Source: a virus
DNA length: 21,661 nucleotides
Direction: 5' to 3' (one strand)
Virus record (IMG/VR): IMGVR_UViG_3300009104_000136
Location: 1-21,661 of that record
Positions 1-17,130 of the stretch are shown here, one piece after another. The notes beneath the pieces are model-generated. The model made no database searches, was not told where the DNA came from, and saw only the letters and a program-made list of their open reading frames with translations. The first letter of the stretch is position 1, and every line of letters starts with the position of its first letter. The position numbers and the translations under genes are program-made.

Positions 1-3000
1 ATTCCTGTTTCCATTTCTATTTCATATTTTTTTCTAAGTTCTTCTGGTGTAAAGAATCCACCTCTTCTATTATAACTTGGTAGATTATAAATTTTATCTT
101 TATATTCTACGCCTATAGTTTTAGCAGTTACAGGATTACCTTGCTTATCTTGTAGAACTAAACCTAATCTAATTGTATCTAAATGATACTGTTGATTAAA
201 GGTTAAAGGAGTAGTACCTTCTGCATATTTTTTTCTACCACCTATTAAACCACCACCATACTTCTTAGTCCTAGGGGTTATATCAACATCTAAACCGGCA
301 ATAACATGGAAAGGTTGACCAAGATTCTGACTTAGTTTACGAGACATCTTAGCTAAATCTTCTGGAGTAGGTGTTGGTAGTCTTTTAATATCCTTAAGAC
401 CACGCCAACTAATAGGAGCATATTCTATTGGAATGTAATATTTTACTAGTTCTTCAATTAAATCATCAATATCCCCCACGTGTGGGTCGAGATACTTAAT
501 ATTATCCTCATAAGGTAAGCGATATAACATATCTATCTGAGCTTGAAAAGCTTGTTTAATTCTATCATTCCATTCTAATATTCCATTATGACCCCACTCC
601 ATTCTAGTAGCTGTAAGATCAGCTAATAATTCTGTATCAGAACGAGTATCATTATTTCTAAAACGATAAGCTTTTACCATATCAGATGCCATAAACTTAT
701 TAGCATTAATATTATTTTCATTTACATAAGAAAATAAATCATGGAATGCAAGCACTTCAGGAAACTTTTCTTTAACATTATCCTCTTTCTCAAAAGCTTG
801 TCTAACAGCTTTCACACGATTTTGATAGTGTGTTACGTAATCAAGAGCTTTATTATAAATAGCATCACTATAAGCTTCTTGTACTTTATTTATATTAACA
901 GGATTAAGCATTGGATTATCTGCAACTACTTTTAAATGTTTAGCACGTTTTATAGCTAAAGCAATATTTTCTACCTGACCCTGTGCTTCTTTTAATAATA
1001 TACTATTAGCTGTACCAAAATCAAATGATTTAGCTAACTCAGAATTTTCTAACATCCCTATTCTTTCTTCTAATTTAAATAATCTCGCTGTTTCTAATAA
1101 ATCTCTTTGAGGACCTTCAACAATTGTAGCGTGTTCTTTATGAATCTTTTCTATTTCATCAACAGCTCTTAAAAAAGAACGCTTAGATATTTCACTTTTT
1201 AATCCACTCTGTTTTATAATTTCTCTAAATCCTTTAGAAACTATACCACCTGTCATAAATTTCTTTCTAGTTAAAGGGTTATTAACTAACTGTGGTTCAT
1301 TAGTACTAACAGCAAATTGAGTAGGATCAAATATAATATAAGCGTACCCTCTTTTCTTTCCAACTATACTTCCTACTTTAGTAAGTGCTAAACGAGGAGC
1401 ATGTTGTATTTTATATTGAATACCATCAAAACCCATCATTTCTAATAGCTTTATAATATTACGGCTTTGTAAATTTCTAGATAAGGTATATAAGGCAGTT
1501 TCTGAACCTTCCGGTAAATCTTTATTCTTAGGATTTTTTATAAATGCATCGATTATATCATCATAAACTTGATTCTCAGCCACCGCCTGTTTTAATAGAG
1601 AACGAATTTCTTTATCGCTTACTTTAGCCTGTGTAAGTAAAGATTTACTAACTGTTTCATCGTTAATAAATGCATCTAATACTTCTTGTGGACCCCAAGG
1701 ATATAAATCTTTTTCTAACTTTAAAGGGTTTATCATTCTTATATAACCATCAAGTCGAGTAGTTTGTGGTACATCTAAACCATTTACTTGTAAATAATTT
1801 TGTAATGATTCAAATGATACACCAATTTCTTTATGTACTAAATCTTCTGTAGAACGTCCAAGTCTTGCATTAATATTTTCTAATCTTTCAAAATTTCCTT
1901 TAGCTTCATCTCGTAATATCTTTCTTAATCTTTCAAAATTACTAATAATTCTACGTGCTGGAAGTAATGATTCTTCCATCCCTTCTTTAATATCCCGATC
2001 CATCTTTAAAGCTTTTAATTCAGCTTCAACTTCCATCATTGGTCCGGATGTTCTAAGGTCTTCTTCAGTAACTATTTTCATGCCCGGACCCATCTCTACA
2101 GCTTCTCCTTCTATTCCTGTTACTGCAGATGCTGGAAATTCTTCACTTCCTAAATCAGTATCCTGACGATAATCATACGGTTTATATTCTTCAGCCAAGT
2201 CTTCAATCTTAGCAACCTGTCCTTCCGGTGCTGATGTCTCTCTAGGAAATAATCCTAGATCAGCTTTAACTTCTTCAGTTATTTCTATTTCATTTTCATG
2301 TCGCTTAATAAAATTAGTTAATCCTTGCTGATCATCTATATCAAAATATTTTTCTATCTGTTGATTATATCTATCAGGTTTAAATACTACTCTAAATCCT
2401 ACAGGTTTACTAGTTATAGCTGGACCTTTATCAATCTCTGCATGATATTTAGGATCAAGTAAATATTTAGTGTTCTTAGTTTTTAAATCACTGTAAGCTG
2501 TAACATAACCACTTTTTTGTTTTACTATTCCCTTTACTCCTCCAATTTCTACATAATTTTTAGGTATGTTACTTCCCTGTTTTAAAGGTATGAATACTTC
2601 ACTAATAGAATTTTTTACATTAACTATACTATCATTAAAACCTAACCATCTATTATAATCTTTATCTTCTTTCCGCATTAATTCTCGCAATGCAACTTCG
2701 TCTAATTCAGGATTATCCTTACGTAATTTTTTATAGTTAGCTCTAATCTTAGGTAGAATTTTACTTCTTCTTGTTTCTAAATTTTCTAAAAATTTATTTA
2801 AGCGTTTAACTTTAGCTTCAGGATTGATTAACTCTTCCATATCAATAATAGCTTTCTGAATTCCCTTTGCAGTAGGCATGCCTGTAATAAACTCAGGTTT
2901 AGTCTGTCCTTTCTTAATTACCTGCCCAGTAAAATATGGACTTTCAGAATCATAACGATCAATCATTCTTGCTCTGAAAAGTAACTCACTAGAGTTGACA

Positions 3001-6000
3001 AAATTATTATCATTAATAGCAGTTTGTTGTTTATAAATTTCACGAATTTTAGCTAGAGCTTGATCATAATCAACCTTATGCTTACGCATATAATTTTGTA
3101 TAATGCTTTCAAAAAACTCTGGATTCTGTAGAGCATACTTATCATTAGTAAAATCTTTCCAATTTTGTAATGAAGGAAAAGCTCTTGCATTACTATCATT
3201 TAACCACATACCCTCTGCAAATATTCTATCTCCTGTATGTATCCCTATATTAGTAGAACGATCTAAAGCATCACTAACTGAATGCTGTAAATCACTTCTA
3301 CTAATATATGATACAGGGTGTTTCACTACTGATGAATTTAAAAAACTTTGAGTATCTTCAGTACCCAATAATTTCATAGTACTACGTGGTTGAATAATAT
3401 CAGTAGATAATTTATTACCAATTAATCTATCTAAATCAGGGTCTTTATCTATACTATTTATTAATAAATCTAAATCAGTTTCCTTTTTAAATAAAGATTG
3501 AATAATAGGTTTAACTAATCTACCAAAAGCAAAGCGTTGTCTATCGTCTGTATCTTGAACTATAAAGCCTGCAACATCACTAAAAGATACACCGCCTGCT
3601 CCGGGTATTTTTCTATCTTCTGGTTCTGTTTTAGCATTTCTAATATCTACTTCACCACCTCTTTTAAACCTACCACGAGCCTGTTCTTCTGAAATAATAA
3701 CATCAGGAAATATAGGGTCCTCTGCTTCTTTCTTAGTTCCTCTTGCCCATCTTCTTAAATCAGTTCTAGTATCAACTGGTAAGGCAGAATATCCGGGCAT
3801 ATTAGTTACAGCTAATTCTGGTATTCCCTTTCTATATTGAATTGTATCTACAACATCTTGCATTAATGGTCCAGTAGGTGTTTTTAGAAATATAGCTAAA
3901 CCACCACCACCAACTTGTGCATTCTCATAACCTCTTAATGCAAAATCCAGTGGACCTAATCCGCCCCAACGCTGTACAGCTTTCATAGTTACCCACGCTT
4001 CCTTACTTACAAACTCTGGTCTATTAGGATCACCTTCTTCCTCATAATCATAGGGATTACGTAAGTAGTTAGTTAATCCGGCAACCCCTGTCATGATTGT
4101 ACCTACAGCAGCCAGTTTAGGTAAATTCTGACTTGGATTTTTAGTAAGCTGATATATGCCCTCTCTTAAAATTGTATTATTAAAAGCTGTCGGATAACCT
4201 AAGAATTGAAATAACATTTGTCCTGCTGGATGAGAAAATATCATAGGCTTATTAGCTGAAACGGCTGACGGATTTAAAATAATTCCTCTTGAAAATCTTG
4301 CAGCTCCTCTACTAAAATAATTTTCAAAAAAAGTATCTAGTTGTTCTACTCCACTTTCTCGTTTAAAAACTTGTGGTGAACCTCTTTCTATCCAAGCTAA
4401 TCCTTCTTGAATAGGTATACCTAAATCGTGTAATTCTTCTGTTATCCTATTTTGTAAACGATCAAGTTTAATCTCAGGAATATCATCGTACTTAGTTTTT
4501 AATCCATTCTTTATTTTATATAAAGTTTGTAAATTATCTTTTATAATCGTTTTACCTATAGTATAAGCTCCGCCTTCAACCGAATGTGTCCAAGGAGATA
4601 GAATATTAGCATTAAAAAATCCTCTTTGTAGTTTCTGAGCCAGCTTACTTTGCATTCTTTCACCGCCAGATAAACCTTGTATTCTTTCAAATACATTCAT
4701 CTCATGAGCTAAACCAACACCATGTCTTTCTTGATACCATAATCTTTCTAAAGGACTATCAGGAATTAATAGGCGTTTACCCTGTTCTTCACTTAAACCT
4801 AGACGTTCTAAAAAAGCAGTTCTACCAGCATTATATGATTTACGACCTATATCATTAATACCATAACCTATAGCTTCTCCCATATCCTTCATCCCTTTAC
4901 CCCATTGATTAAAAGGAATCCTAGCAAAAGGAATAAAAGCTTCTGTAACACTTGATACAGTAGCTAAAGGTAAGTGAGCTGTTTGTTGACTTAAACGTAA
5001 CCAATCAGATGTACCTTGCATAACTCTAGAGCCTGTCCAAGTTTCCATAGTTGGCATGTCTATACCTAATACATAATCATATAATTGCATTAAAGCTTGT
5101 TCATCGGCAGCCTTTAAAGGAAAATCTTGATCGTCTAATTCTTGTTTTATCTTGGGTAAAATTTGATTTTTGAAAAATTCTTTATTACCTCTTAAAGTAG
5201 GATGTTTAGTTCTAGCCATTGAATGAGCTAGATTATTAGAATAATTAAGTAATACTTCAGTTATATCTTCTTCTAAGAAAGGAGCTTTTCTATCGTATGG
5301 TATTTTATTAAATACTCTAGGATTTAAATTACCAACACCTTTTTTAGTTCTTTCAATACCATCATCAAAAAACATTTGATCTTTGGTCAACATATTATCT
5401 ACAATATGTCTAGCTTTATCTCGTTCAGTAGCAAAGGGAGCAGTAATATCAAAATCATCTATAGTTTTAGCATCAAAAATTTCTTGTAATTCTCTTTGAG
5501 CTTCATTATAACTTAAATTTCTTTTAGCTTGCTGAACTCTCCCTGTAGATATATCAATAACTTCTTCAGTAGCATTTCTCATATATCTTTCTACTTGAAC
5601 TGGTGTAGGAGAAATATCTGCATAACCAAACTCTATTAAGTTATCTTCAAATTCAGTCCTATTATCTTTTAGATAGCGTTTATTATACATATGCGGAAAA
5701 TAATTTTCTCGCCAACTAGTCCTTTTTGCAATACCTGCATTTATAGCATCCTTAAAATGATTATTTAAAGCTTGACGAATTGCCGTAGCTCCTAGTAAAT
5801 CTTCTCCTGTTAGTTCAGGAGCATTTGGTCCTCCTTCTAACCACAATCTAATTCTATCATTACGTGCTTTAGACCAACCAACTTGCTTCATTCCGTCTAT
5901 AGGAAACTGCATTTCAGCTACATATTTACTTCTTTGTTGATGTAAAGTTTCATGGAAAGCAAAAGGTCTATATCGTCCTGCTAAACTTTCATACTTACTC

Positions 6001-7262
6001 CATTTAGTTAAAGGTTTATCCCAATCTTCTCTAACATCATCTAAAAATTTAAACATAGTTTCTGAACGTAAACCATATTCTCTTATCTGTGTAGTGGGCT
6101 TTCCTTGAGTATGAGCCATTAACCAATCACCATAATTAGCTGTAAATTTAGGAGATACTCTTTCAAATATACGACCAAATAAATTTTTATTAATTACTTG
6201 TTCTTCAAAATCTGCATCTTCAACACCTTCCATAGATATTCTAACTGGTGTATCAAACAAATCTAAATTTCTACCTTCAAGTTTTAAATCAGAATCTATA
6301 CCTTCCCATTCAGACTTCCTTCTAATTCGTTCTAATTCTGAAACTTCTAAATTATTAGATGATCTTATAATTCTATCTTCATCTGAAAATCTATCAATAA
6401 CACTTCTAGTTTGATTACTACGTGTAAAGAAGCGGGATATACCATATCCTATACCACCACCTAATAGACCTGTAAAGCCCCCAACTAAAGCTGTTTGTCC
6501 TAAATCAAAACCAGAATTTTGTAACCCTACATTAATATCTATATTTTGGAGAGCTGCGTCATGTCCTGTTCCCCAAACAAAACCTATACCAGCTTCTACT
6601 TTACCGATTCGCATAGCTTGTTGATGAGTAGTTAATTTTTTTAATCCTTCAGTTGCTGCTTTACCTGCTGCAAACCTAGCTCCAATACTACCACCACCTG
6701 TAACAAAACCAGCTAAGATAGCTAACATCATTGTAGGATCACTAACAAAATCTCCCCCTATATCAGCTATCGCTCTTACATAGTGTTCCATACCAGAACC
6801 TTTAAGGCTTGCTTTATCAAAGCGTTGACTTAAATATTCATAATCTTTTTTCTGACGATCTGACCAGTTTTTAGAAGCTAAAGCTATACTTAAAGCACTA
6901 TCTCCTCCGGGAAAACTAGTTAATGAATAATCGCTATCCCTTAAATATTCAAACATATCTTCAGGATCAATATCAGTTTCACCGATTGATTCTAAGAATC
7001 TCTCAGCAATTCGTACATATTCGGGATCGTTTTCTAAATCTAGGAGGGTTTCATTGATAGGAGATAAAGAACTAAAAGTTCTGGTAGGTTTTATAGCTGT
7101 GATATCGTAGCCAAGATTTAACTTAGTATCATCAGTATCGGGGATAGGGGCTAGTAAAGCTTCACCTAAATGGGTAGGAATAAGTCCAGTATTCTCTTCT
7201 TCCTCTTCTTGTTTAGGAGGAGAAGTTAATAGATCATATAAATCTACAGTATTAATTGACAT
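1..7262 (-). CDS. Giant internal virion protein candidate, at least 2420 aa (3' end outside window)
   Basis: I read the frame codon by codon from the ATG at 7262-7260 to the left edge and found no stop, so 2420 codons are present and the C-terminus is missing. Residues about 20-25 are an acidic run. Gly-rich hydrophobic segments lie near residues 165-190 and 255-275. A segment with the motif ENYFPHMYN is near residue 520, and another hydrophobic stretch (LAAVGTIMTGVAGLTNYL) is near 1045-1070, followed by GGLGPLDFALRGYENAQVGG. Residues about 1800-1990 resemble the ADP-ribosyltransferase-like domain of phage polyvalent proteins (separate entry). The gene starts 12 bases after the 622-aa gene, with a weak AAGAG ribosome site, the poorest in the last block. 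Last position in a structural operon, great length and Gly-rich hydrophobic segments suggest a T7 gp16-like DNA-ejection protein. I see no lytic transglycosylase motif. A polyvalent or antirestriction protein carried in the virion is the main alternative. Confidence 0.75.
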   Translation of the reverse strand, partial: MSINTVDLYDLLTSPPKQEEEEENTGLIPTHLGEALLAPIPDTDDTKLNLGYDITAIKPTRTFSSLSPINETLLDLENDPEYVRIAERFLESIGETDIDPEDMFEYLRDSDYSLTSFPGGDSALSIALASKNWSDRQKKDYEYLSQRFDKASLKGSGMEHYVRAIADIGGDFVSDPTMMLAILAGFVTGGGSIGARFAAGKAATEGLKKLTTHQQAMRIGKVEAGIGFVWGTGHDAALQNIDINVGLQNSGFDLGQTALVGGFTGLLGGGIGYGISRFFTRSNQTRSVIDRFSDEDRIIRSSNNLEVSELERIRRKSEWEGIDSDLKLEGRNLDLFDTPVRISMEGVEDADFEEQVINKNLFGRIFERVSPKFTANYGDWLMAHTQGKPTTQIREYGLRSETMFKFLDDVREDWDKPLTKWSKYESLAGRYRPFAFHETLHQQRSKYVAEMQFPIDGMKQVGWSKARNDRIRLWLEGGPNAPELTGEDLLGATAIRQALNNHFKDAINAGIAKRTSWRENYFPHMYNKRYLKDNRTEFEDNLIEFGYADISPTPVQVERYMRNATEEVIDISTGRVQQAKRNLSYNEAQRELQEIFDAKTIDDFDITAPFATERDKARHIVDNMLTKDQMFFDDGIERTKKGVGNLNPRVFNKIPYDRKAPFLEEDITEVLLNYSNNLAHSMARTKHPTLRGNKEFFKNQILPKIKQELDDQDFPLKAADEQALMQLYDYVLGIDMPTMETWTGSRVMQGTSDWLRLSQQTAHLPLATVSSVTEAFIPFARIPFNQWGKGMKDMGEAIGYGINDIGRKSYNAGRTAFLERLGLSEEQGKRLLIPDSPLERLWYQERHGVGLAHEMNVFERIQGLSGGERMQSKLAQKLQRGFFNANILSPWTHSVEGGAYTIGKTIIKDNLQTLYKIKNGLKTKYDDIPEIKLDRLQNRITEELHDLGIPIQEGLAWIERGSPQVFKRESGVEQLDTFFENYFSRGAARFSRGIILNPSAVSANKPMIFSHPAGQMLFQFLGYPTAFNNTILREGIYQLTKNPSQNLPKLAAVGTIMTGVAGLTNYLRNPYDYEEEGDPNRPEFVSKEAWVTMKAVQRWGGLGPLDFALRGYENAQVGGGGLAIFLKTPTGPLMQDVVDTIQYRKGIPELAVTNMPGYSALPVDTRTDLRRWARGTKKEAEDPIFPDVIISEEQARGRFKRGGEVDIRNAKTEPEDRKIPGAGGVSFSDVAGFIVQDTDDRQRFAFGRLVKPIIQSLFKKETDLDLLINSIDKDPDLDRLIGNKLSTDIIQPRSTMKLLGTEDTQSFLNSSVVKHPVSYISRSDLQHSVSDALDRSTNIGIHTGDRIFAEGMWLNDSNARAFPSLQNWKDFTNDKYALQNPEFFESIIQNYMRKHKVDYDQALAKIREIYKQQTAINDNNFVNSSELLFRARMIDRYDSESPYFTGQVIKKGQTKPEFITGMPTAKGIQKAIIDMEELINPEAKVKRLNKFLENLETRRSKILPKIRANYKKLRKDNPELDEVALRELMRKEDKDYNRWLGFNDSIVNVKNSISEVFIPLKQGSNIPKNYVEIGGVKGIVKQKSGYVTAYSDLKTKNTKYLLDPKYHAEIDKGPAITSKPVGFRVVFKPDRYNQQIEKYFDIDDQQGLTNFIKRHENEIEITEEVKADLGLFPRETSAPEGQVAKIEDLAEEYKPYDYRQDTDLGSEEFPASAVTGIEGEAVEMGPGMKIVTEEDLRTSGPMMEVEAELKALKMDRDIKEGMEESLLPARRIISNFERLRKILRDEAKGNFERLENINARLGRSTEDLVHKEIGVSFESLQNYLQVNGLDVPQTTRLDGYIRMINPLKLEKDLYPWGPQEVLDAFINDETVSKSLLTQAKVSDKEIRSLLKQAVAENQVYDDIIDAFIKNPKNKDLPEGSETALYTLSRNLQSRNIIKLLEMMGFDGIQYKIQHAPRLALTKVGSIVGKKRGYAYIIFDPTQFAVSTNEPQLVNNPLTRKKFMTGGIVSKGFREIIKQSGLKSEISKRSFLRAVDEIEKIHKEHATIVEGPQRDLLETARLFKLEERIGMLENSELAKSFDFGTANSILLKEAQGQVENIALAIKRAKHLKVVADNPMLNPVNINKVQEAYSDAIYNKALDYVTHYQNRVKAVRQAFEKEDNVKEKFPEVLAFHDLFSYVNENNINANKFMASDMVKAYRFRNNDTRSDTELLADLTATRMEWGHNGILEWNDRIKQAFQAQIDMLYRLPYEDNIKYLDPHVGDIDDLIEELVKYYIPIEYAPISWRGLKDIKRLPTPTPEDLAKMSRKLSQNLGQPFHVIAGLDVDITPRTKKYGGGLIGGRKKYAEGTTPLTFNQQYHLDTIRLGLVLQDKQGNPVTAKTIGVEYKDKIYNLPSYNRRGGFFTPEELRKKYEIEMETG
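1290..1860 (-). other. ADP-ribosyltransferase-like segment inside the giant protein
   Basis: Within the giant frame, residues about 1800-1990 contain, in order, HKEIGVSFESL, GYIRMINPLKLEKDLYPWG, MMGFDGIQYK and GYAYIIFDPTQF. From memory of the family, the ADP-ribosyltransferase domains of phage polyvalent proteins have the order [G-x-H-F near the start] - [KNPL-type strand followed by D-L-x-W] - [GYDG-I-x-Y] - [Y-I-V-F-D-P-x-Q]. The last three elements match well. The first matches poorly, since an S stands where H is usual. I infer an ART-like fold. Catalytic activity cannot be judged from this, and the domain may be a degenerate structural module. It is followed by KKFMTGGIVSKG, a Gly-Gly turn motif. 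Confidence 0.5.
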
Positions 7263-7274
7263 AAGTAGCTCTTG

Positions 7275-9143
7275 TTAAGAATCTAAAAATTCTTTAATTT
7301 CTTGTTTAGATAAATCTGGGTCTAATCCTAAAAGAGTTAATGCTTCTTTTATTTGTTTAGGTCTATACTTAACACCTTTAGTATAGTTTATTAATCTCTT
7401 ACGAGCATTTACTTGAGGAGCTTCTTCAACTGCTCTTAAAAATGGTTTTACAAGTATTTCCTCTCCACCTACTCCAGTATGAGCTGTTCTGGGTTTATCT
7501 CTATAACCTAATGAGCTTAATTCCTCATCAATATTTGGCGGTGGAGGAGGGGGTGGAGGTGGTGGAGGTGGAGGTGGGGGTGGAGGTGAACCAGTATCTC
7601 CTCCAATATCTTCTTTAGTATCTCCTTTTTCTTTTAGTTGAGGATTAATATAAGTTAAAAAAGACTGTTGTAATTCTTCTATTGTCTGCTCTGACATATT
7701 TCTAACTCTTGCCATCTTAGGTAATGTAAGTGTAACATACGTTTTTGCCATTTCTATTTTATCTTTTAAAGGTGCTGATTTAAATATATCTGTTGCGTTA
7801 AACATAATAGTATTTTTATCTGTTCCTCTACTAATTTCAAAAGGTGGTAATATTAATCTATTAGCTGCATTTGTATTCCAAGAATAATTTTTTAAACGTG
7901 TTCGTCCTATCATTCCATAAGTTTCCTGTATAGGATGTTCAGTTACAAAATGTTTTAATCCAAAAGCTGCTATCTCAGTTATACCTTCATTACGATTACC
8001 TTTAAATAATGAAAGATTAAAACGGTTAGTTTCTTCTCTAAGTTCTGCTGTAGTTGGTATATAATCACCAGCATGTTTACTTCTTAAGCTAAGACTAGCA
8101 AAAGTCCTCGATAAAGATTCACCAAATTCCGGATTCTCTTCCGCAATATTACGTAAATTAACTGACCATTTTGCCCATTCCTTGCCCATAAAAGTAGGAA
8201 TACCGTTTTCTATTAGTCCTGATTTTGCCCACGCTGTATCTAAAGTTTCTAGTAATTCCTCTGATATCTTAAATTGTGTAGGATTACGAGAAATTTGATC
8301 TATTATATTGATAACCCAAGGTCCAGCTTCCTCATCAGAAATTGTAGAAGAAGGACTTTTTATTAGAGCTATAGAAATTTTATTTAAATTTTCTTGTGTA
8401 GGAACAAAAGGTAAATCAGGTTGTATAGTATCCATTAAAGTTTTAAACTTAGGTAACTTATCTAGAGTTATATCATCTAATAATCTAAGTGAATTGTCTG
8501 TTTGACCCTCTCCTTTTCTCCAATTATTTATTCGTTTAACTCCTGCTTTCATTGAATTTAATAATTTACCTTGATCTTTAATACTATTTTTTGCCTGTTC
8601 AAGAGGTTCTTTATATAATTTCATAAGTCTTGGTAAATCCATATTATAGAGTTTATCCATCGTTAAACCTTCATCTAAATCCTGTAAAACTTCTAAAGAA
8701 GTTCCAACACTAGTAGTTAAGTACTTATTAAAATCATCTAGTATACTTTCGGCATATGCTCTTTGAAAAAGTGGTGACTTTCCTTCACCCAATATACCGC
8801 TTTGTATTAAACTATTTATTTTACTTTCTCTAGAGCCTGCTCCATCAACAATATTTTGTAGTGTTTTAGTATCTGTTAGTTTATTAAAAAGAGCCTGTGC
8901 CTTTGCTTCTGCAGACGCATTCCATGAATCTATTTCTTTAGTACGTTCTGTTGCTAAGTTTCTAGGAATACTAACTGCATTCATAAGAATACCATCCTTA
9001 CCTAACCAAGCGTTCCAGTCTTGTTCTTCTTTCCAATTTTTAAGACTGTCTTTCTCTCTCTTTTTTTGTCCTTGCCGAAGCAAGCTGAACATCTCACTCA
9101 TGTCCATGTTCATATTTACATTATCCCAAGGATTCTCTGCCAT
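7275..9143 (-). CDS. Virion protein with 17-residue poly-proline tract
   Basis: A 622-residue protein of unknown family, largely predicted helical and soluble, with no signal peptide or membrane segment that I can see. The N-terminus is rich in Met, Asp and Asn (NMNMDMSEMFSLL) and is followed by charged helices. Residues 520-536 are 17 consecutive prolines, preceded by a Gly/Asp/Ser-rich linker. An 86-residue C-terminal tail ends in a short helical region (SKQEIKEFLDS). The ATG overlaps the stop of the 208-aa gene as TAATG, with AAGGAG eight bases upstream, so translation is probably coupled. The place between a small conserved protein and the giant protein, and the length, recall T7 gp15 next to gp16, but I see no sequence motif that proves this. 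The poly-proline run would stall ribosomes without EF-P and probably acts as a stiff spacer between two domains. Confidence 0.8.
   Translation of the reverse strand: MAENPWDNVNMNMDMSEMFSLLRQGQKKREKDSLKNWKEEQDWNAWLGKDGILMNAVSIPRNLATERTKEIDSWNASAEAKAQALFNKLTDTKTLQNIVDGAGSRESKINSLIQSGILGEGKSPLFQRAYAESILDDFNKYLTTSVGTSLEVLQDLDEGLTMDKLYNMDLPRLMKLYKEPLEQAKNSIKDQGKLLNSMKAGVKRINNWRKGEGQTDNSLRLLDDITLDKLPKFKTLMDTIQPDLPFVPTQENLNKISIALIKSPSSTISDEEAGPWVINIIDQISRNPTQFKISEELLETLDTAWAKSGLIENGIPTFMGKEWAKWSVNLRNIAEENPEFGESLSRTFASLSLRSKHAGDYIPTTAELREETNRFNLSLFKGNRNEGITEIAAFGLKHFVTEHPIQETYGMIGRTRLKNYSWNTNAANRLILPPFEISRGTDKNTIMFNATDIFKSAPLKDKIEMAKTYVTLTLPKMARVRNMSEQTIEELQQSFLTYINPQLKEKGDTKEDIGGDTGSPPPPPPPPPPPPPPPPPNIDEELSSLGYRDKPRTAHTGVGGEEILVKPFLRAVEEAPQVNARKRLINYTKGVKYRPKQIKEALTLLGLDPDLSKQEIKEFLDS
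7536..7586 (-). repeat. Proline-codon tract (17 codons)
   Basis: Seventeen consecutive CCN codons on the minus strand, in all four forms CCA, CCT, CCC and CCG. The tract encodes residues 520-536 of the 622-aa protein. The + strand is correspondingly G-rich (GGAGGAGGGGGTGGAGG) and could form G-quadruplexes. Confidence 0.95.
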
Positions 9144-9769
9144 TATGCTACTCCTTCGTTTCTAGCTAGTAAACTACTTTGATTACCGCCTAGTCGTTGC
9201 TGTAATAAACTTTCCTGTTCATCTGTTTTATTAAAATCATCTAAAGCATCTTGAATAGTTGGTGGTAATTCTGTTCGTGGCTTTTCAATATCAACTTTTA
9301 AAGCTTCGTCAAATAAATTACTTCGTAAAGCTGCATTACGACTATTTAAATTTTGTAATCTAGTATCATCCGTTTCTGCTAAATCTGAATCTTCCTCATT
9401 ACTTTCTATTATAGGATCAATTCCTTCTTTTTCTGCTATACCTAAGAATACATAGGTTAGTGGTTCTATCATTTGTAATGCCATATCAGGATTCCACTTA
9501 CCCATATAAATACCTGCTTTAGTAAACATATTTACTAAAGAACGAATAGGGATACCATCAGACATAGCTACAACCATTTCAATATAAGTATTAGGTTCTA
9601 ATATATCTGCAACTGATCTATCTACAGCTTCTCTAAAATTAGTAATTTCAGGAGGACGCTCCCAAGGTCTAGGTTCATCTGGACTATTCGTTAACGATTG
9701 TCCGGGGATAGGTCGATTAAAAGGATTAACAGTTTTGACTGCATCTTCATCTATAAAATTATTAGACAT
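9143..9769 (-). CDS. Conserved marine-phage virion-associated protein, 208 aa
   Basis: A 208-residue protein whose N-terminal part contains RPIPGQSLTNSPDEPRPWE, followed by RPPEITNFREAVD. A PGQSLTNxP...PWE.PP opening followed by a helical domain (here EMVVAMSDGIPIRSLVNMF, then KAGIYMGKWNPDMALQMIE) is one I recall from many cyanophage and pelagiphage proteins of unknown function encoded among structural genes. The C-terminal third is acidic, polar and probably disordered. It overlaps the stop of the 376-aa gene by eight bases and has AAGGAGA eight bases before its ATG. Its stop overlaps the next start. In size and place it could match T7 gp14, but that is inference only. Confidence 0.8.
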   Translation of the reverse strand: MSNNFIDEDAVKTVNPFNRPIPGQSLTNSPDEPRPWERPPEITNFREAVDRSVADILEPNTYIEMVVAMSDGIPIRSLVNMFTKAGIYMGKWNPDMALQMIEPLTYVFLGIAEKEGIDPIIESNEEDSDLAETDDTRLQNLNSRNAALRSNLFDEALKVDIEKPRTELPPTIQDALDDFNKTDEQESLLQQRLGGNQSSLLARNEGVA

Positions 9770-10892
9770 TATAATAATCTCCTTGTGATTGTCCTAAGTT
9801 GTATTCAAATGTCGGAATACTTCCAATTGTTTTAAACCTAGGTGGATTATATCTAGGAATATAATATTTCCAATCATCCATATTAGCCGAAAATATACCC
9901 CCATGAAGAGGTAGATTCATTAAATTAGCCATTTGGTTAGGATCAGTTAAATTTGTAAATTGTAGATCACCACCTTTAAATATTTCTTTAGTAGCTTTAT
10001 TAATTTGTTCCTTATGTGTATTTGGACTAGAGGTAAAGAAACTCTCAGGTGATACAAAATTAAAACCACCTAAATTTTCTCTATCGACATTCGTATCAGA
10101 TTCTGATATAGCCATATGTGCAGCTATGTTTAAACTATTATTTGCCTGTCTTTGTCTGTATTCTGCTAATTCTTCTTCTGTCATTCCAGCTATCAATTCC
10201 TCTGTAGCAGCAGTAACACCAGCAGTACCTGTAACAGCACTAGTTACTTTCTCCACAGTAGTAAGAGATTTTTGAGAAGCTGTAGCATCTTTAGCTGCTT
10301 TAGCTGCCTTATCTAAATTATCTTGATATTTCTCTATATTACTTCTATGAACTTTAACTGTTTCTCCAGCTTTCCATTCAGTTTTAGGATTCATTTTTAC
10401 GATATCTTCGGCACTCATTCCTGTTTGTTCTGCTAGTAATTCTATAGTATCGCCTTCCCCTAAAGTAATATTTCTAGTAAAAGGATCACCTTCTAAGCCA
10501 GTCATACTTCTAAGTTGAGAGTGTGCTTTCTCATAAAGATTTGCTAATCTGTCACCTAAACCCATATCTTTTCCACCGGGTATAAGATTTAAACTTTCTT
10601 TAATTCCACTAGTAATAGAACTATAAACTTTACCCGTTGCATCTCCTGCCCATTTAATAGTTTTAGCCATACCATCAAAAACTTTATTTCCAAAAAATGT
10701 TTTATCTGCAAAAAATTTCCAATTCGCATTCATAAACCAATGTGATATATAGGGAGCTACAATTGCCATGCCTAAATATCCTAAAGGTCCTAACTTACCA
10801 ACAAATTTACCAATTTTAGAAAAAGCCTTTCTAATACCCTTTCCTAATTTTTTTATAGGTTTTAAAATCTTTTTAAATACTTTCTTAAACAT
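9762..10892 (-). CDS. Virion protein with cationic amphipathic N-terminus and LysM-like segment
   Basis: A 376-residue protein. Residues 1-35 are very rich in Lys and hydrophobic residues (MFKKVFKKILKPIKKLGKGI onwards) and resemble an amphipathic membrane-active helix. A short hydrophobic Gly-rich stretch follows at about 35-53 (LGPLGYLGMAIVAPYIS). Residues about 141-182 look like a LysM domain: NITLGEGDTIELLAEQTGMS, then EDIVKMNP and an AGETVKV end. LysM domains bind N-acetylglucosamine-containing glycans such as peptidoglycan. An Ala/Lys-rich helix follows (about 186-240), and the C-terminal part is rich in Asn, Pro and Tyr and ends in a Gly/Gln/Tyr segment. No catalytic hydrolase domain is visible. 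It begins two bases after the 905-aa stop, and its ribosome site GGAGGAGG is made from the final Gly codons of that gene. A role in crossing the envelope during ejection is plausible but inferred. Confidence 0.8.
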   Translation of the reverse strand: MFKKVFKKILKPIKKLGKGIRKAFSKIGKFVGKLGPLGYLGMAIVAPYISHWFMNANWKFFADKTFFGNKVFDGMAKTIKWAGDATGKVYSSITSGIKESLNLIPGGKDMGLGDRLANLYEKAHSQLRSMTGLEGDPFTRNITLGEGDTIELLAEQTGMSAEDIVKMNPKTEWKAGETVKVHRSNIEKYQDNLDKAAKAAKDATASQKSLTTVEKVTSAVTGTAGVTAATEELIAGMTEEELAEYRQRQANNSLNIAAHMAISESDTNVDRENLGGFNFVSPESFFTSSPNTHKEQINKATKEIFKGGDLQFTNLTDPNQMANLMNLPLHGGIFSANMDDWKYYIPRYNPPRFKTIGSIPTFEYNLGQSQGDYYNV

Positions 10893-10894
10893 TA

Positions 10895-13612
10895 CTATCC
10901 TCCTCCAAGGAAATTATCCAATATACTAGTTATGGAACTTAAATTACTAGACCAGCCTTTCCCTTCATAAGCTGCTGAATCATTACCAAGAGCAGCTACC
11001 ATCAAAGATGCTTTACGTGATAAATCATTATCTGAAACTTTAAAAGCAAAATCCATTTCATCTCTAGTTTCTTGCCACAAATTCGATAATTGTTGTGTAC
11101 TTAATTGAAAAGCATTTTGTGCATTCTGTTGATTAATAGAGTTCTGGGCAGCCGTATTAATTGTATTGGCTTGTCTACGCCATTGTACATTAGATTGTTC
11201 AATAGCTTGAGCATTCTGCACATTAAACTGTTCCTGTTGAAAATTAATTTGTTCATTAAACTGATCTATCTGTGCTGCTAATTGACTATTAGCTAATGAA
11301 ACTTGTGTACCTAACTGTGCCCTTTGAGCTTCAGCAGCATTCTGTTGGGTTGCATTAAATTGTTGCATTGCATCATTTCTAGCAGCATTATTAACATCTA
11401 CCTGCGTTTGTAGATTTGCCATAAATTGATTAGTCTGATTTACAGATGTTGAATTAAACTGTCTTGCAGCATTTTCAGCAGCTTGATCAGATAACATTCG
11501 TTGTTGATCTAATTGAGCTTGTAATACAACACCCTGCTGTTCATTATTAAGATTTGCCATATCCATCTGTAAGAAGTTACGTGCATTCTCTATTGATCTC
11601 TTAGTATTCTGATCAGCAGTAGCCATATCTAACTGTGCCATTATTGTAGCTTGTTGCATCGCTGCTTGCTGTTTCTGTGAAAAATCTTGTAGAGTAGTTG
11701 TCTGCATAAATTTACTATTAGCTAACTCAACTTGTTGAGCTGTAGTAAATTTCGTCATATCCATATTAGCTGTTACTGATGCATGTTGCATAGCACGTTG
11801 CTGATCTACATTTAATTGAGCAACACCTAATTCTTGAGCCAGTTTAGCATTTAATGTATTAACTTCTAAACGAGATTGTAAATTTGCCAACTCAACTTTT
11901 TCGTCTGCCGAGAGTTGTTCTGAAGCTGCTTGGTTCTTTGAAGTTAAGTTTGCTAATCTCATCTGTTGATCATTAGATAAATTAGCTAATTCCATTTGTT
12001 GTGCAAATGCTGTATTCTTAGCTAAGAAATCAGCAGCAGTCTGGAACTGAGTTAATCTACTTTGTTGAGCTTGCTGGGCTGTAGTTAAAGTAGCCTGTTG
12101 CATAAACTCACCTTGTTGTAAAGCAACTTGTTGAGCCATAACCGCAGTTTGTCTAGCTGCTTCTTGACTATTAGCAAGATTTTGTAATCTTAATTGTTGT
12201 CCATTCTGAGTTTCAGCTAACTGAGCTTGTTGTTCATTTGATAAATTTTGAGTAGCTCTTTGTTGTATTGCTCTAGCATTTTCCTGTGCAATACTAATAC
12301 CATTTTGAATAATAGCATTAAATAAAGCATCTCGTCCAACTGTAGAAACATCTAAACCTCTATCAGCCATTATTTGATTAACTTGATCTACTGCAGGTTT
12401 AGCCCACGTTGGAACTTCACCAGCTTCCAAGCCACCTAGTAATGCTTCTAACTGAGCAGACACTAAAGCTTCTGGTGGTAAGGCAGCAGTTGCAGCCTGT
12501 ACCGTAGTAGTTTGATTATCTAACTGTGCTATAAAAGTTGTAGGATCATCTAATATAGCTGCACTAACATCGGAAGGTAATTCAGCTACGAAGTTTAATA
12601 AATCCTGTGCAGTTTGTGTAGCTGATAAACCTCGTGACGATCTTTCAGAAGCTGTTAAGAAAGTAGGTACACCTTGTATCTGTCTTTCATTTCCTTGAGC
12701 TTGTGTTCCTGTTAATATAGCTCTCGATTGCTGTTCAGCTTGTGGCGTTTGATTTACAAGACCACCAGTACCTGTTACTTGTGTAGCAAAAGCACCAGCA
12801 CTTAAAGCTCCTTCAACATTTGTTGCTTTAGCTGCATTCATTTGCTGTTCTGTTGGAGCAGTAACAGCAGTTGCTCTTTCTCTTTGTTGTATAGCTCCTA
12901 TTTGATCTACTTGTTGAGAGACAGCTCCCTGTGCTGCAGGACCAACAGCAGCTCTTGCAGCCTGTGCAGAATCATAAGTTTGTGCTGTAATTGGTTCACG
13001 CTGCCCAATACGTTCCGCAGGACTAGCAGTAAATACATCTCTTCTAGCAGCTTGAGCAGAAGGACCACCCACCTGCCCATACTGTTCTTGCATTTGTTTA
13101 GTGTCAGCTTCTAGTTCTTCATCCCTGACCATTTCCCAGCGTCCACTTGGTTTATCTCTATACCAGTCAGCTCCTATCTCTTGATCATCTCCTATTCTAA
13201 AAGGTCCTTTAGTTCCCGGAGGACCGTAAGGTTGTATTTCATGTGGAACCCAAACTCTTTTATATCCTGCTTTAACAGCCGGAGGAAGTTTAGCTGCTTC
13301 CGGTACTTTTCCTTCTAAAGCTCTTTTTGATACTGCATCATAATCAGCAATACGTCCTGCTCTTTGTCCTAATTGTTCCTTACGAACTTCTGGGGTTATA
13401 GGTCCTTTATCTGCATCAGTTACTCTCCCCGGATATGGAACAGTACTTGGTACAGGTCCAGATGCTGTACTTCCATCACTAGCACGGTGTCCAGCTTCAT
13501 TTGGATTATGTGGAATCCAACTACTTGATTCACGTTCATAGTTGTGACTACCCCTATGATACTTTGCTCTATCCTGTGTACCCTTAGTATATCTTCTTCT
13601 TCTTCTTGCCAT
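10895..13612 (-). CDS. Large Gln/Ala/Asn-rich protein with long hendecad repeat
   Basis: A 905-residue protein. The N-terminus is strongly basic (MARRRRRYTKG). Residues 30-330 are Pro-, Gly- and Gln-rich and probably poorly ordered. A compact helical region at about 330-449 contains WAKPAVDQVNQIMADRGL and STVGRDALFNAIIQNGISIA, a segment I associate with structural proteins of Mediterranean metagenomic phages. Residues 450-845 form an unbroken 11-residue repeat (separate entry). The last 60 residues return to ordinary composition and end in LGGG. There is no signal peptide or transmembrane segment. The start has GAGGTGA about eight bases upstream and lies directly after the 80-aa gene. A fibrous, tape-measure-like or ejection-channel role fits the repeat, and an internal scaffold of the tail is equally possible. 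Function is unknown. Confidence 0.82.
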   Translation of the reverse strand: MARRRRRYTKGTQDRAKYHRGSHNYERESSSWIPHNPNEAGHRASDGSTASGPVPSTVPYPGRVTDADKGPITPEVRKEQLGQRAGRIADYDAVSKRALEGKVPEAAKLPPAVKAGYKRVWVPHEIQPYGPPGTKGPFRIGDDQEIGADWYRDKPSGRWEMVRDEELEADTKQMQEQYGQVGGPSAQAARRDVFTASPAERIGQREPITAQTYDSAQAARAAVGPAAQGAVSQQVDQIGAIQQRERATAVTAPTEQQMNAAKATNVEGALSAGAFATQVTGTGGLVNQTPQAEQQSRAILTGTQAQGNERQIQGVPTFLTASERSSRGLSATQTAQDLLNFVAELPSDVSAAILDDPTTFIAQLDNQTTTVQAATAALPPEALVSAQLEALLGGLEAGEVPTWAKPAVDQVNQIMADRGLDVSTVGRDALFNAIIQNGISIAQENARAIQQRATQNLSNEQQAQLAETQNGQQLRLQNLANSQEAARQTAVMAQQVALQQGEFMQQATLTTAQQAQQSRLTQFQTAADFLAKNTAFAQQMELANLSNDQQMRLANLTSKNQAASEQLSADEKVELANLQSRLEVNTLNAKLAQELGVAQLNVDQQRAMQHASVTANMDMTKFTTAQQVELANSKFMQTTTLQDFSQKQQAAMQQATIMAQLDMATADQNTKRSIENARNFLQMDMANLNNEQQGVVLQAQLDQQRMLSDQAAENAARQFNSTSVNQTNQFMANLQTQVDVNNAARNDAMQQFNATQQNAAEAQRAQLGTQVSLANSQLAAQIDQFNEQINFQQEQFNVQNAQAIEQSNVQWRRQANTINTAAQNSINQQNAQNAFQLSTQQLSNLWQETRDEMDFAFKVSDNDLSRKASLMVAALGNDSAAYEGKGWSSNLSSITSILDNFLGGG
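11078..12265 (-). repeat. 36 tandem 11-residue (33-bp) repeats
   Basis: Dividing the 905-aa protein into blocks of 11 from residue 450 gives 36 consecutive units without an insertion or deletion, to residue 845. Typical units are QQLRLQNLANS, QQVALQQGEFM, QQMELANLSND, QQVELANSKFM, QQRMLSDQAAE and TQVSLANSQLA. Positions 1-2 favour Gln or Asn, position 5 is often Leu, Met or Val, and position 8 is often Leu, Ala or Phe. Units later in the array (such as FQQEQFNVQNA) are richer in Asn, Gln and Phe. An 11-residue period is the hallmark of hendecad, slightly right-handed coiled coils. At helical rise it would span about 59 nm. Confidence 0.8.
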
Positions 13613-13856: not shown

Positions 13857-14510
13857 TTAGTTCTCCTTAACTAATTCTTCTGTCTTTTCTATTTTAAAAC
13901 CTTTAAACCATGCTGGTAAGCCTAGAAAGGGTCTTGTATCAAACTTATTTTCTTCTGCTTCCTCTCCATTTACATCATTATAATGTAAAAATACTTGACC
14001 ACAGTTCTCTCCTTCAAAAGGTTCTCGCCAATGTTCTAATTCACAACCACGATACATAACCATATCTCCAGCTTCCATTAAAATAGATGTTCCTTTTTTT
14101 CCTGTATCACCAGTTGAATCTAAAAATAATTCCCAAGGATCACCTCCTAAGTTTAAAGTACCTGATATTTCACAACTATACCGATCTTTATGTCTTTTTA
14201 AAATATCTCCTTTTTTATAGATACGAGCATAACTATAAGTAGGATAAAGTTTAAAACCACTTTCTGCTTCCATTCGTGGTAATAGTTTTTCTAATAATGT
14301 CTCCATTACTATATCACTATAATGGCTATATGTTTCTGGAATTTGTGAATCATTCCACACGCCCCAATCTTCATTAAACTGAGAAATATATAGACTATCA
14401 TAAAACATTCTTGCTACTTTTCGTTTAGTTAAAAAATAATCATAACAAAAGTTAGCCATTTCTTCTGATATAGCTCTTTTAACTATTAAATACTTATCGT
14501 CTTTAAACAT
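13857..14510 (-). CDS. 2-oxoglutarate/Fe(II)-dependent oxygenase (second copy), 217 aa
   Basis: The 217-residue protein carries the facial triad of the superfamily: H107-x-D109 in LKRHKDRYS and a distal H160 in CELEHWREPF, spaced as expected for a double-stranded beta-helix core. YARIYKKGDIL before the triad and GQVFLHYND after it fit the strands of the core. Members use 2-oxoglutarate and O2 to hydroxylate or demethylate a substrate. The substrate here is unknown. It overlaps the end of the first oxygenase gene by eight bases, with AGGA about eight bases upstream. The two proteins differ strongly in sequence, so they are not a recent duplication. Related genes are common in tail-fibre regions of cyanophages, where their substrate is also not established. 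Confidence 0.85.
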   Translation of the reverse strand: MFKDDKYLIVKRAISEEMANFCYDYFLTKRKVARMFYDSLYISQFNEDWGVWNDSQIPETYSHYSDIVMETLLEKLLPRMEAESGFKLYPTYSYARIYKKGDILKRHKDRYSCEISGTLNLGGDPWELFLDSTGDTGKKGTSILMEAGDMVMYRGCELEHWREPFEGENCGQVFLHYNDVNGEEAEENKFDTRPFLGLPAWFKGFKIEKTEELVKEN

Positions 14511-15126
14511 AAGGTTGTCCTAAACTCCAACATACTAAAGAATGTCTTATCCCTCTAGTAACTGGTTTTACTCTATGCCACACAAACGAAGGAAATATAA
14601 TTAAACTTCCTCTTGGTCTAACTTCTTCACAAATAGAAGGTTGTTTATTTCCGTCATTATCATGGAATCCAAACTCTACATCTCCACCTTCGTATTCTTC
14701 TGGCTCACTTAATGATAAAATTAAACTTAACTTTCTTATTTTACCATTTGTGTTTGGATCATCAGGTTTATCATAAGGAGTTGGATTACTATCACAATGC
14801 CAATCATAAAACTGTCCTTCTTTATATTCAGTATATTGACAAGATTCTGACCAATCCCATTGAAAATTCCAATTAGCTCTTTCATTTGCCAGTTGAATAA
14901 AAGGTTGTAGTTCTCTATATAACCAATATCCTGAAAGCCACACAACATCTGATTTTCTTTTTTTCTCTATACTTTCTAATTCTTCTTCTGAAGGAGGATT
15001 ATTCTTTACATGTCCTCCTGTTAATCCCTTCTCTTTAGAAAAGGATTCTCCTGTTTTAACTATTTCATCACAAATACTTAAAGGAATAGCTTTAGTAAAA
15101 TACCAATAATAATCCTGTAAATTCAT
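14503..15126 (-). CDS. 2-oxoglutarate/Fe(II)-dependent oxygenase, prolyl-hydroxylase-like, about 207 aa
   Basis: From the ATG at 15126 the protein has 207 residues. It shows H110-x-D112 in FYDWHCDSN, distal H184 in FVWHRVKPV and R194 in GIRHSLVCW, the Fe(II)-binding triad plus the arginine that binds 2-oxoglutarate. EGGDVEFGF and PRGSLIIFPS are typical core strands of the prolyl 4-hydroxylase-like PKHD group. A frame extension upstream to 15150 begins with TTG inside the preceding gene. The ATG giving MNLQDYYWYF lies eight bases after that gene's stop and is the better start, although its ribosome site is weak. The substrate is unknown. A peptide or glycan in the virion or cell surface is a possibility suggested only by position among fibre genes. 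Confidence 0.87.
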   Translation of the reverse strand: MNLQDYYWYFTKAIPLSICDEIVKTGESFSKEKGLTGGHVKNNPPSEEELESIEKKRKSDVVWLSGYWLYRELQPFIQLANERANWNFQWDWSESCQYTEYKEGQFYDWHCDSNPTPYDKPDDPNTNGKIRKLSLILSLSEPEEYEGGDVEFGFHDNDGNKQPSICEEVRPRGSLIIFPSFVWHRVKPVTRGIRHSLVCWSLGQPYV

Positions 15127-15133
15127 AAAAAAA

Positions 15134-16138
15134 TTATCGCCATTCCCCAATTACTTTTTTATGAAATACTTGTTTATAATCCCAAACTCCACTAGCGTTA
15201 ACATTCGGTTCACTAACAATAACTATACCTGATCCACCTGCAGCACCAGTTCCGTCATTATCGGCTGGGTGTTCAGGAGTGGCTTGATCAGCACAAACTC
15301 CACCACCTCCACCACCTGTGTTAGCAACACCAGTTCCTAAAGTTGGTGATGGTGAGCCTTGGTGGTTTGCATCCCCAGCTCCACCTTTTTGAGCAGGGAA
15401 AATACTTCCTCCACCTGTAGTATGACCTCCTAAATATCCTTTATTAATTTTTCCTTCGGTTGAAGCAAGTTCGTGTGTAAATCTATAACCAGCTCCACCA
15501 CCACCAGAATACCAAGTTTTTGAGCCAGAAACAGTAGACATCTTAGCTAATCCACCTTGACCACCTATAGCGTTCCAATCGTTACCAAGTCCATCTGGAG
15601 TTTCATTACCACCAGTACCACCGGCTCCACCGCCTCCACCACCAGAGTAATAACTACTACCATTGTATCTTCCATGACCTCCATCATTTCCTTCAGGTGG
15701 ATCAAAACTACCTGAATTACCTGTTCCACCACCGGGATGTGCTGGGTGATTACCACCTGAACCACCACCGGAACCTCCATTAAGTGCTTCGCTATCTCCT
15801 CCAACAGCTAGACCACCAGCCCCACCACCACCAGATGATGTAATAGGAGTAGCAGAACCAAAAACTGAATCAGAACCAGAAGAACCTCTATTATTTGAAT
15901 CTGGAGCCCCTGCTCCACCTGCTCCAACAGTTACTGGAACAGGAGAAGTTGGAATTGGGTGAGCCGGAAGTTCTCTAAATCCACCTCCACCCCCACCACC
16001 ATGACTAGAACCACCACCACCAGCAATTACTAATAAATGACATTCGCTTGACATAGGATCGGCTGCAAAAGTTCCATTAGCAGTAAAGGTCGTTATCTTA
16101 GGTGTAATTGTAAAGTTTTTTCCTACTAGTCTAGCCAT
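15134..16138 (-). CDS. Glycine-rich tail adhesin-like protein B, about 334 aa
   Basis: The protein begins MARLVGKNFTITPKITTFTA and contains a strand-rich segment ending LLVIAGGGGSS, then about 230 residues of Gly-rich motifs (GGGGGGGF, GAGGAGAP, GGGGGAGGTGG). It closes with GGSGIVIVSEPNVN, GVWDYKQVFHKKVIGEWR and a stop. This plan, a VVAGGGG opening, a glycine-rich core and a IVIxEP...GVW end, is common in marine phage tail proteins. A start at 16147 is possible, but GGAG would then be one base from it. The ATG at 16138 forms TAATG with the upstream stop and has GGAG ten bases away, so I chose it. It is paralogous to the adjacent upstream glycine-rich protein. A receptor-binding tip role is inferred. 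Confidence 0.8.
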   Translation of the reverse strand: MARLVGKNFTITPKITTFTANGTFAADPMSSECHLLVIAGGGGSSHGGGGGGGFRELPAHPIPTSPVPVTVGAGGAGAPDSNNRGSSGSDSVFGSATPITSSGGGGAGGLAVGGDSEALNGGSGGGSGGNHPAHPGGGTGNSGSFDPPEGNDGGHGRYNGSSYYSGGGGGGAGGTGGNETPDGLGNDWNAIGGQGGLAKMSTVSGSKTWYSGGGGAGYRFTHELASTEGKINKGYLGGHTTGGGSIFPAQKGGAGDANHQGSPSPTLGTGVANTGGGGGGVCADQATPEHPADNDGTGAAGGSGIVIVSEPNVNASGVWDYKQVFHKKVIGEWR

Positions 16139-17130
16139 TAGCCCCATTCTCCATTTATTTTATGACTAAATTGATCTTGTATATTCCATACACCACCTGC
16201 TGTCCATGTTCCTTTAGGCTCACTAATTACAACTACTCCAGAACCACCAGCACCTCCAGCTTGAGCTTGTGGAGCACCTGAAGGGGAAGCTTGAGTACCT
16301 CCACCACCTCCACCACCTCCGGTGTTAGCAGTAGCAGCAGAGCCAGTACCAGAGACAGAAGGTGATCCAGCAGAGCCACCAGCTCCACCACCACCAGCTC
16401 CACCAGCAGCGTCAGGAGCAGCATCTCTACCTCCTCCTCCTCCACCAGCATAAGTTACATCACTTCCTGAAATATCATAAACAGTTCCTTTACCACCACC
16501 AACAGGACCTTTTGAACTACCTGAATACCTACCAGCACCGGTAGAACCTCCCCCATTACCTGCTTGTTGACTAGGAGTACCAGAACCTTGACCACCCGGA
16601 CTTCCTTGTGGATCAGGAGAAGGAGTGGATTCTCCAAAATTCTCTCCACCGGGAGCATCAGCAGCACCTCCACCACCAGAACCTCCATCTTGACCATGAT
16701 TAGCACCACCACCAAAGTTGTCTCCACCACGACCACCACCTACAGCAGTATAAGTAGTGCCACTAGCAACTACTACAGTATCAGAACCATTAGCTCCACC
16801 ACGACCTTCGGCTGGATCAGGACCATGTACTCCTCCAGCTCCTCCACCAGCACCTATAGTGACAGGCACAGGAGAAGAAGGCATAGGTACAGCAGTTCCA
16901 GCAGGAGTTCGAGCTGTGCTTGAATTAAATAATACTCCTCCAGCACCTCCTCCACCACCACCAGCTTGTCCAGAGCTAGGACAGCCAGAACCACCAGCAC
17001 CTCCAGCTACTATTAAAATTTCAGCTTCAGGAGAATTAGCCACAAATGTACCTGAAGAATTAAAAGTAGTTATTTTAACCGCAGTAGTTGGGTCATTATC
17101 TGTTCCTATAAGTCCTCCATTAATAGCCAT
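16138..17130 (-). CDS. Glycine-rich tail adhesin-like protein A, 330 aa
   Basis: The protein begins MAINGGLIGTDNDPTTAVK, has ITTFNSSGTFVA and a strand leading into ILIVAGGAGGSG. Residues about 40-290 are dominated by glycine runs separated by short Ser, Pro, Ala and Asp segments. The end is GGSGVVVISEPKGTWTAGG, VWNIQDQFSHKINGEWG and a stop. The ribosome site AGGAGA lies four bases before the ATG and includes the G of the previous stop codon. Its ends match those of the next gene closely in pattern, while the core differs, so the two are tandem paralogs. Glycine-rich phage adhesins such as the tip of Salmonella phage S16 form packed polyglycine-II helices with loops that bind receptors. A similar role here is inference. 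Confidence 0.82.
   Translation of the reverse strand: MAINGGLIGTDNDPTTAVKITTFNSSGTFVANSPEAEILIVAGGAGGSGCPSSGQAGGGGGGAGGVLFNSSTARTPAGTAVPMPSSPVPVTIGAGGGAGGVHGPDPAEGRGGANGSDTVVVASGTTYTAVGGGRGGDNFGGGANHGQDGGSGGGGAADAPGGENFGESTPSPDPQGSPGGQGSGTPSQQAGNGGGSTGAGRYSGSSKGPVGGGKGTVYDISGSDVTYAGGGGGGRDAAPDAAGGAGGGGAGGSAGSPSVSGTGSAATANTGGGGGGGGTQASPSGAPQAQAGGAGGSGVVVISEPKGTWTAGGVWNIQDQFSHKINGEWG
16148..16152 (-). promoter_or_regulatory. Ribosome binding site deciding the start of glycine-rich protein B
   Basis: GGAGA on the minus strand. It is one base short of touching the first in-frame ATG (16147) but a workable ten bases (counted from GGAG) from the ATG at 16138, which overlaps the previous stop as TAATG. 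This favours the shorter, 334-residue product. Confidence 0.6.

Follow-up and report, generated by a model that had tools for sequence, protein, structure and literature searches.

Giant phage proteins which combine ART, peptidase and lysozyme domains are already known as polyvalent proteins. It was proposed that the phage polyvalent proteins enter the host with the DNA, and that their peptidase domains serve to process them (Iyer et al., 2017; PMC5512222). Precedents of both kinds were given in the same work, as DdrB of phage P1 is cut before packaging while the RNA polymerase of phage N4 is packaged whole. LUZ24 gp50 (Bruynoghevirus; its relatives include the KPP25 structural protein) is annotated as a particle protein of 1055 residues and is encoded near the end of the virion block. 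In cultured HMO-2011-type phages, the position of the giant gene considered here is taken by proteins which range from 1121 to 1893 residues and are without exception annotated as hypothetical (HTVC103P gp52, 1671 aa; HTVC104P gp54, 1638 aa; HTVC115P gp40, 1893 aa; HTVC033P gp52, 1393 aa; CRP-2 gp44, 1121 aa; HMO-2011 gp22, 1128 aa). A giant family is also represented by phrog_7348 (2564 positions), for which the label 'endolysin' is the sole description encountered here.

The stretch of DNA analysed (the window, 21,661 nucleotides) is the entire IMG/VR record IMGVR_UViG_3300009104_000136. A single giant gene and the structural genes preceding it fill its left part:

3..7262, minus strand: giant ORF, 2420 codons in the window, extending beyond the left edge
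7275..9143, minus strand: upstream gene of 622 aa in the same operon, a conserved neighbour with homologues among 27 ORFs of the loci
9143..9769, minus strand: upstream gene of 208 aa, a conserved neighbour with homologues among 40 ORFs of the loci
9762..10892, minus strand: upstream gene of 376 aa, with a weak LysM match
10895..13612, minus strand: gene of a 905-aa Gln/Ala-rich structural protein with similarity to cultured phages

The giant frame starts with an ATG at 7262 on the minus strand and is free of stops down to position 3, where it is truncated by the contig end. A scan of IMG/VR revealed 161 relatives of its N-terminal core, from which 80 loci were retained. The contig L002 (IMGVR_UViG_3300030107_004354), likewise found by scanning IMG/VR, originates from another metagenome and carries the same frame with 90% identity to the window over 2350 residues, complete at 2569 codons. 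Since this independent contig carries it intact, the giant frame is real; an assembly artefact or a read-through is ruled out by the unbroken frame in L002, and the length of 2420 codons is beyond chance. The preliminary description had reported a frame open through all 2420 codons, containing the motifs ENYFPHMYN and GGLGPLDF and lying at the end of a structural operon. Both motifs were found in the protein, the open frame was seen independently in L002, and the giant gene indeed closes a conserved structural block, with a lysozyme gene coming next in the relatives. In L002 the genes located 3' of the giant gene encode a T4-type lysozyme (PF00959), a membrane-protein-like product and an Hsp20-like product; Hsp20 lies near the end of L002, and likewise in HTVC103P.

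The 905-aa protein displays 41% identity to proteins of the Pelagibacter phages HTVC103P, HTVC104P and HTVC115P, and is also similar to proteins of HTVC033P and of Roseobacter CRP phages. As the gene block and the oxygenase genes (see below) agree, the window most likely belongs to an HMO-2011-type phage. A host assignment via genome contigs yielded one short contig in a Pelagibacter MAG and was set aside as too weak alone.

Several features of the surrounding genes were recorded. The 622-aa gene (7275-9143) encodes a run of about 17 prolines, extended to about 21 in L002; the C-terminal part of its product is nearly identical in the window and in L002, while the front has diverged. Two adjacent genes at 13857-15150 match 2OG-Fe(II) oxygenase PHROGs and ferrochelatase-labelled PHROGs, respectively, and a two-domain family joins the oxygenase- and ferrochelatase-labelled genes of the window. 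The ferrochelatase label may be a propagated annotation error, because HTVC033P has like genes (gp58, gp60, gp61). Two tandem, similar and very Gly-rich proteins (330 and 337 aa) are encoded at 15134-17130 with a GC content above the rest of the window, and are perhaps receptor-contact or fibre proteins. The gene at 17998-20922 encodes a fibre-like protein of 974 aa, which contains long internal repeats and matches bactofilin above the Pfam cut-off. In L094, a gene annotated as toxin-activating lysine-acyltransferase (15558-16007; HTVC115P gp46) adjoins the homologue of the 905-aa protein.

The giant protein was divided into the following parts, numbered by residue from the ATG:

3534..7262, minus strand: predicted ejection-type core, residues 1-1243 (PHROG matches and core HMM)
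3534..3668, minus strand: core-terminal signature with the first joint, residues 1199-1243 (RFKRGGEVDIRNAKTEPEDR...QDTDDR), conserved in relatives
3225..3404, minus strand: tentative N-terminal half of an ART-like domain, residues 1287-1346 (N-half profile and colinear alignment)
1758..3224, minus strand: insert of about 490 residues in the ART-like domain, residues 1347-1835 (alignment)
1302..1757, minus strand: C-terminal half of the ART-like domain, residues 1836-1987, GYIRMINPLKL ... MGFDGIQY ... YAYIIFDPTQF (hhalign)
1233..1268, minus strand: second joint TRKKFMTGGIV, residues 1999-2010 (joint motif)
261..1232, minus strand: degraded metallopeptidase-like (zincin-like) module, residues 2011-2334 (alignment and dN/dS)
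213..266, minus strand: third joint KKYGGGLIGGRKKYAEGT, residues 2333-2350 (homology switch point)
3..212, minus strand: start of a third module, residues 2351-2420, common to L003 and L079 and not found in L002

A Pfam scan of the whole giant protein gave no useful match, and tblastn searches against cultured phages with the full protein and with the ART part returned none; cultured relatives emerged only via slices and related sequences. Against the PHROGs profiles, the core matched phrog_7348 (E 3.8e-50), the LUZ24 gp50 family phrog_6958 (E 3e-12) and, weakly, the T7 gp16 family phrog_342 (E 2.5e-6 for the window, 8e-9 for L071). A core profile (HMM) was then built from 54 marine cores and run on a set of eight sequences, to which its E-values exclusively apply. 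In this set it detected LUZ24 gp50 (E 2e-13) and the cultured HMO-2011-type proteins CRP-2 gp44, HTVC033P gp52, HTVC103P gp52 and HTVC115P gp40, and it did not recover T7 gp16 (E 0.19). These matches indicate that residues 1-1243 are a complete ejection-type protein homologous to LUZ24 gp50. The latter has a comparable place, being the last very large particle protein, and differs by the absence of tail modules; similarity between the neighbour genes of the window and LUZ24 genes was undetectable. The cultured HMO-2011-type homologues share the gene position with the window, the cores of the four detected by the profile being only distantly similar by sequence, and HMO-2011 gp22 and CRP-2 gp44 have about the length of the window core alone. 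T7 gp16 (internal virion protein D) differs from the window core by its N-terminal transglycosylase domain, which PHROGs recognised in T7 gp16 and which neither Pfam nor PHROGs detected in the window protein. A PDB sequence search with the core and with the ART-like family gave no match. Within the core, the domain LPD38 was found in HTVC033P only.

The preliminary description had seen a complete internal virion protein in the first ~1100 residues, with T7 gp16 as its point of comparison and at least 1300 added residues. The ejection-type assignment stands, and the likeness to T7 gp16 is retained as a possible distant one, LUZ24 gp50 and the HMO-2011-type homologues being closer. The lengths needed correction: as the core measures about 1243 and not ~1100 residues, the extra part in the window amounts to 1177 residues, compared with about 1330 in L002.

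The core ends in a recognisable signature, [FY]AxGG[IL]V..VPN..EPDE...D.E[DE]R, at which many marine relatives terminate (e.g. L082, 1168 residues, ...GVILEDEEER). Complete C-termini numbered 45 after removal of redundancy; the tail is no longer than 30 residues in 16 of these and measures 93-1383 residues in the other 29. In about 50 loci the next gene after the giant one is the lysozyme gene. Lysozyme and giant protein are joined in a single frame in five loci, L017, L019, L022, L027 and L077 (three distinct forms), the fused lysozyme of L017 sharing 58% identity with the stand-alone gene of L002. With a fixed core end on one side and a conserved downstream lysozyme on the other, the tail represents a variable stretch between two conserved elements.

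The first module of the window tail (residues 1244-2002) is a divergent ART-like one. Its C-terminal half was aligned with family A3, present in six other tails, with an hhalign probability of 95% (E 6e-8), and two A3 members match PF18760 (ART-PolyVal) with E-values of 8e-5 and 1e-4. The profile phrog_7348 covers both the core and this C-terminal half, its positions 1449-1608 matching the corresponding region of L002 (2e-12); it also matches the LysM-like gene of L002 and the tail of HTVC115P. The N-terminal half is tentative: with the N-half profile it scored 10.1 bits against 8.0, the best of 501 sequences (the tail and 500 shuffles). The two halves are separated by the large insert, whose site is occupied by about 200 residues in L020 and by 12-20 in compact relatives. 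No direct match of the window region to Pfam ART-PolyVal was obtained, whereas relatives match ART-PolyVal and lysozyme directly. The AlphaFold models of two tail parts, the peptidase-like module and the ART region, were poor (pLDDT values of 35 and 44.5), and a fold search with the poor ART-region model gave no match. Comparison of the window with L002 yielded dN/dS values of 0.25 for the core and 0.30 for the ART-like region, both of which are under purifying selection. The ART-like segment announced in the preliminary description is thus real, by way of a family that itself matches ART-PolyVal.

The second module behaves differently. Its dN/dS reaches 0.81 between the window and L002 (Fisher p 0.0004 vs the core), which points to evolution almost free of constraint. 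L002 displays HELFH with a downstream DTEVLADL, a zincin-like pattern, where the window has HDLFS (729-743), immediately preceded by a 35-residue deletion in the alignment with L002. The HExxH motif of zincins is consequently missing from the window module, for which the fold model was uninformative. Such a rate pattern would be expected if function had been lost; fast adaptive evolution may account for it as well. In the giant ORF of L079 (1-5016), a second HExxH module (HEIIH) was observed near the C-terminus, at residues 1555-1610. The sequence around it differs, so that there may have been more than one acquisition of peptidase-like cargo. At the third joint the homology to L002 ends, and about there begins the homology to the tail modules of L003 and L079. 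The alignments indicate that residue 2351 onward is a module swap between two close relatives.

The same tail segments are common to relatives in differing orders and combinations. A domain scan of 32 tails detected phage lysozyme (4), ART-PolyVal (3), DUF3990 (2), as well as LysM and glucosaminidase, and at least eight tails contain a helical-looking module some 100 residues long. L028 was first read as having a single ART domain interrupted by about 400 residues; this reading was given up, as L028 has two ART modules. In HTVC103P gp52, the joints KFNVGGVV and GLSTGGRVGFSEG flank a stretch that looks methyltransferase-like by eye, without a Pfam match, and a Pfam lysozyme comes next; HTVC104P gp54 shows this arrangement too, with joints, methyltransferase-like stretch and C-terminal lysozyme. 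Several joints are also present in HTVC115P gp40, which has one module in common with L028. Judged from these shared segments, the added parts are mosaics of exchanged modules.

The joint motif [FY]xxGG[LIV] was found 78 times in the giant proteins, where shuffles predict 9.6, and 4 times in the remaining ORFs of the contigs that carry them, where 10.2 would be expected. Because many of the 78 copies are core-signature copies inherited from a common ancestor, the position of the motif relative to module borders is a stronger test than its count. A looser joint-type motif, chosen to cover the visible variants, lay within 20 residues of 16 of 32 module starts and 17 of 34 module ends (random 5.7 +/- 2.1); with the strict motif the association was weak (6/37; random 1.7). 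An Arg at position -3, which is outside the search pattern, occurs in 31 of the 46 non-signature joint sites. The resulting consensus, R-x-x-[FY]-[AV]-x-G-G-[LIV]-[VA], was defined on the same data as its counts.

Considering all the evidence, we regard it as fairly probable that the giant protein is the ejection protein of an HMO-2011-type marine podovirus with a C-terminal site for exchangeable cargo delivered at entry. Residues 1-1243 would perform the ejection, and the C-terminus would serve as a plug-in site where each cargo domain is preceded by a joint R-x-x-[FY]-x-x-G-G-[LIV]-[VA]. From the core homology and the gene position we infer that capsids contain the protein and release it with the DNA; if so, the cargo would reach the periplasm or cytoplasm at the onset of infection, and its modules may act there on the wall (lysozyme, LysM) or in the cell interior (ART). 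Enzymatic activities of the modules are likewise predicted ones. The load of the window would comprise three modules: an ART-like one, divergent and interrupted by a large helical insert, a metallopeptidase-like one in decay, and the third one. Recombination could exchange the cargo in the stretch bounded by the core and the downstream lysozyme gene, both of which are conserved and the latter of which is itself sometimes fused in frame. The joints may be hinges which ease the passage of the long chain through the tail, or cleavage sites which free the cargo; as the second module of the window lacks the catalytic motif, any release would need another protease. The preliminary description had proposed an ejection protein fused to an effector. 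The long C-terminal extension with its ART-like domain agrees with this, while the single effector gives way to a chain of modules varying between phages, so that the giant protein is probably a delivery vehicle with a load differing from phage to phage. A more far-reaching version is put forward tentatively, namely that marine HMO-2011-type phages and related ones share a standardised cargo system. In it, any domain could be spliced onto a fixed socket at the C-terminus of the ejection protein by way of a universal joint, RxxFxxGG[LIV][VA], which would be cut or unfold at entry; each virion would deliver several separate effectors, and the cargo set would change faster than the phage.

Instead of being cytoplasmic effectors, the extra modules could act at the cell envelope during entry, by opening the wall, extending a channel or contacting a receptor or the membrane; we consider this alternative credible but less likely than not. 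The lysozyme, LysM and glucosaminidase modules among the tails point in this direction, as does the wall-degrading domain carried by T7 gp16, but no envelope role is known for ART-PolyVal and DUF3990 modules. This reading does not conflict with ejection as such; it departs from the preferred explanation only in the place where the cargo acts.

It is unlikely that the tail is made but removed before or during packaging, or is active in the producing cell (lysis, assembly), with only the core being ejected. A lysozyme gene downstream and lysozymes among the fused modules would suit such a role, joints at module borders would fit cleavage, and P1 DdrB offers a precedent for processing before packaging (PMC5512222). 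On the other hand, ART domains are typically early effectors and not lysis factors, and the stand-alone lysozyme probably already handles lysis in most loci. Moreover, the N4 virion RNA polymerase likewise has a peptidase domain and yet is reported to enter the particle without processing (Iyer et al., 2017; PMC5512222). Finally, that the tail is a recombination dump, gathering functionless in-frame fragments between two conserved genes, is improbable: the peptidase-like module of the window with its lost HExxH, deletion and high dN/dS, and the many phages that manage without any tail, would fit, but the ART-like region evolves at nearly the rate of the core, tails remain open up to about 1390 codons, lysozyme and ART domains recur among them, and the joints are conserved.

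If the delivery of exchangeable cargo at entry is true, virions with an exchangeable payload occur among relatives of phages whose hosts include some of the commonest bacteria of the ocean. Cultured members grow on Ca. Pelagibacter HTCC7211, which makes the payload idea testable now. The roles of internal virion proteins in the first minutes of infection are a long-standing question, and phages with no cargo, a single module, many modules or a decayed one form a natural series that offers ready comparisons for the roles of injected proteins early in infection. The joint motif would provide a sequence handle for locating similar cargo elsewhere.

Like the phage-type polyvalent proteins, whose repertoire includes ART, zincin-like peptidase (MPTase) and lysozyme domains (PMC5512222), the giant proteins of this family are very large and multidomain and are encoded among virion genes; ART-PolyVal and lysozyme domains were matched directly in relatives of the window protein. 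In the window, the core, the ART-like domain, the degraded zincin-like module and the third module lie in one frame, with the structural block upstream and, in relatives, the lysozyme downstream. On its sequence features, the giant protein is best placed among the phage polyvalent proteins, as one that has an ejection protein for its base. The words 'linker', 'Pelagibacter' and 'marine' are all absent from the main text of PMC5512222, and in the open-access literature no description was found of an ejection-protein carrier with a fixed end, a graded series, a joint motif and module decay. What sets the present system apart from the proteins of PMC5512222 is the ejection-protein carrier with its fixed end signature, the natural gradation between proteins devoid of cargo and proteins with about 1390 residues of it, and the recurrent joint motif.
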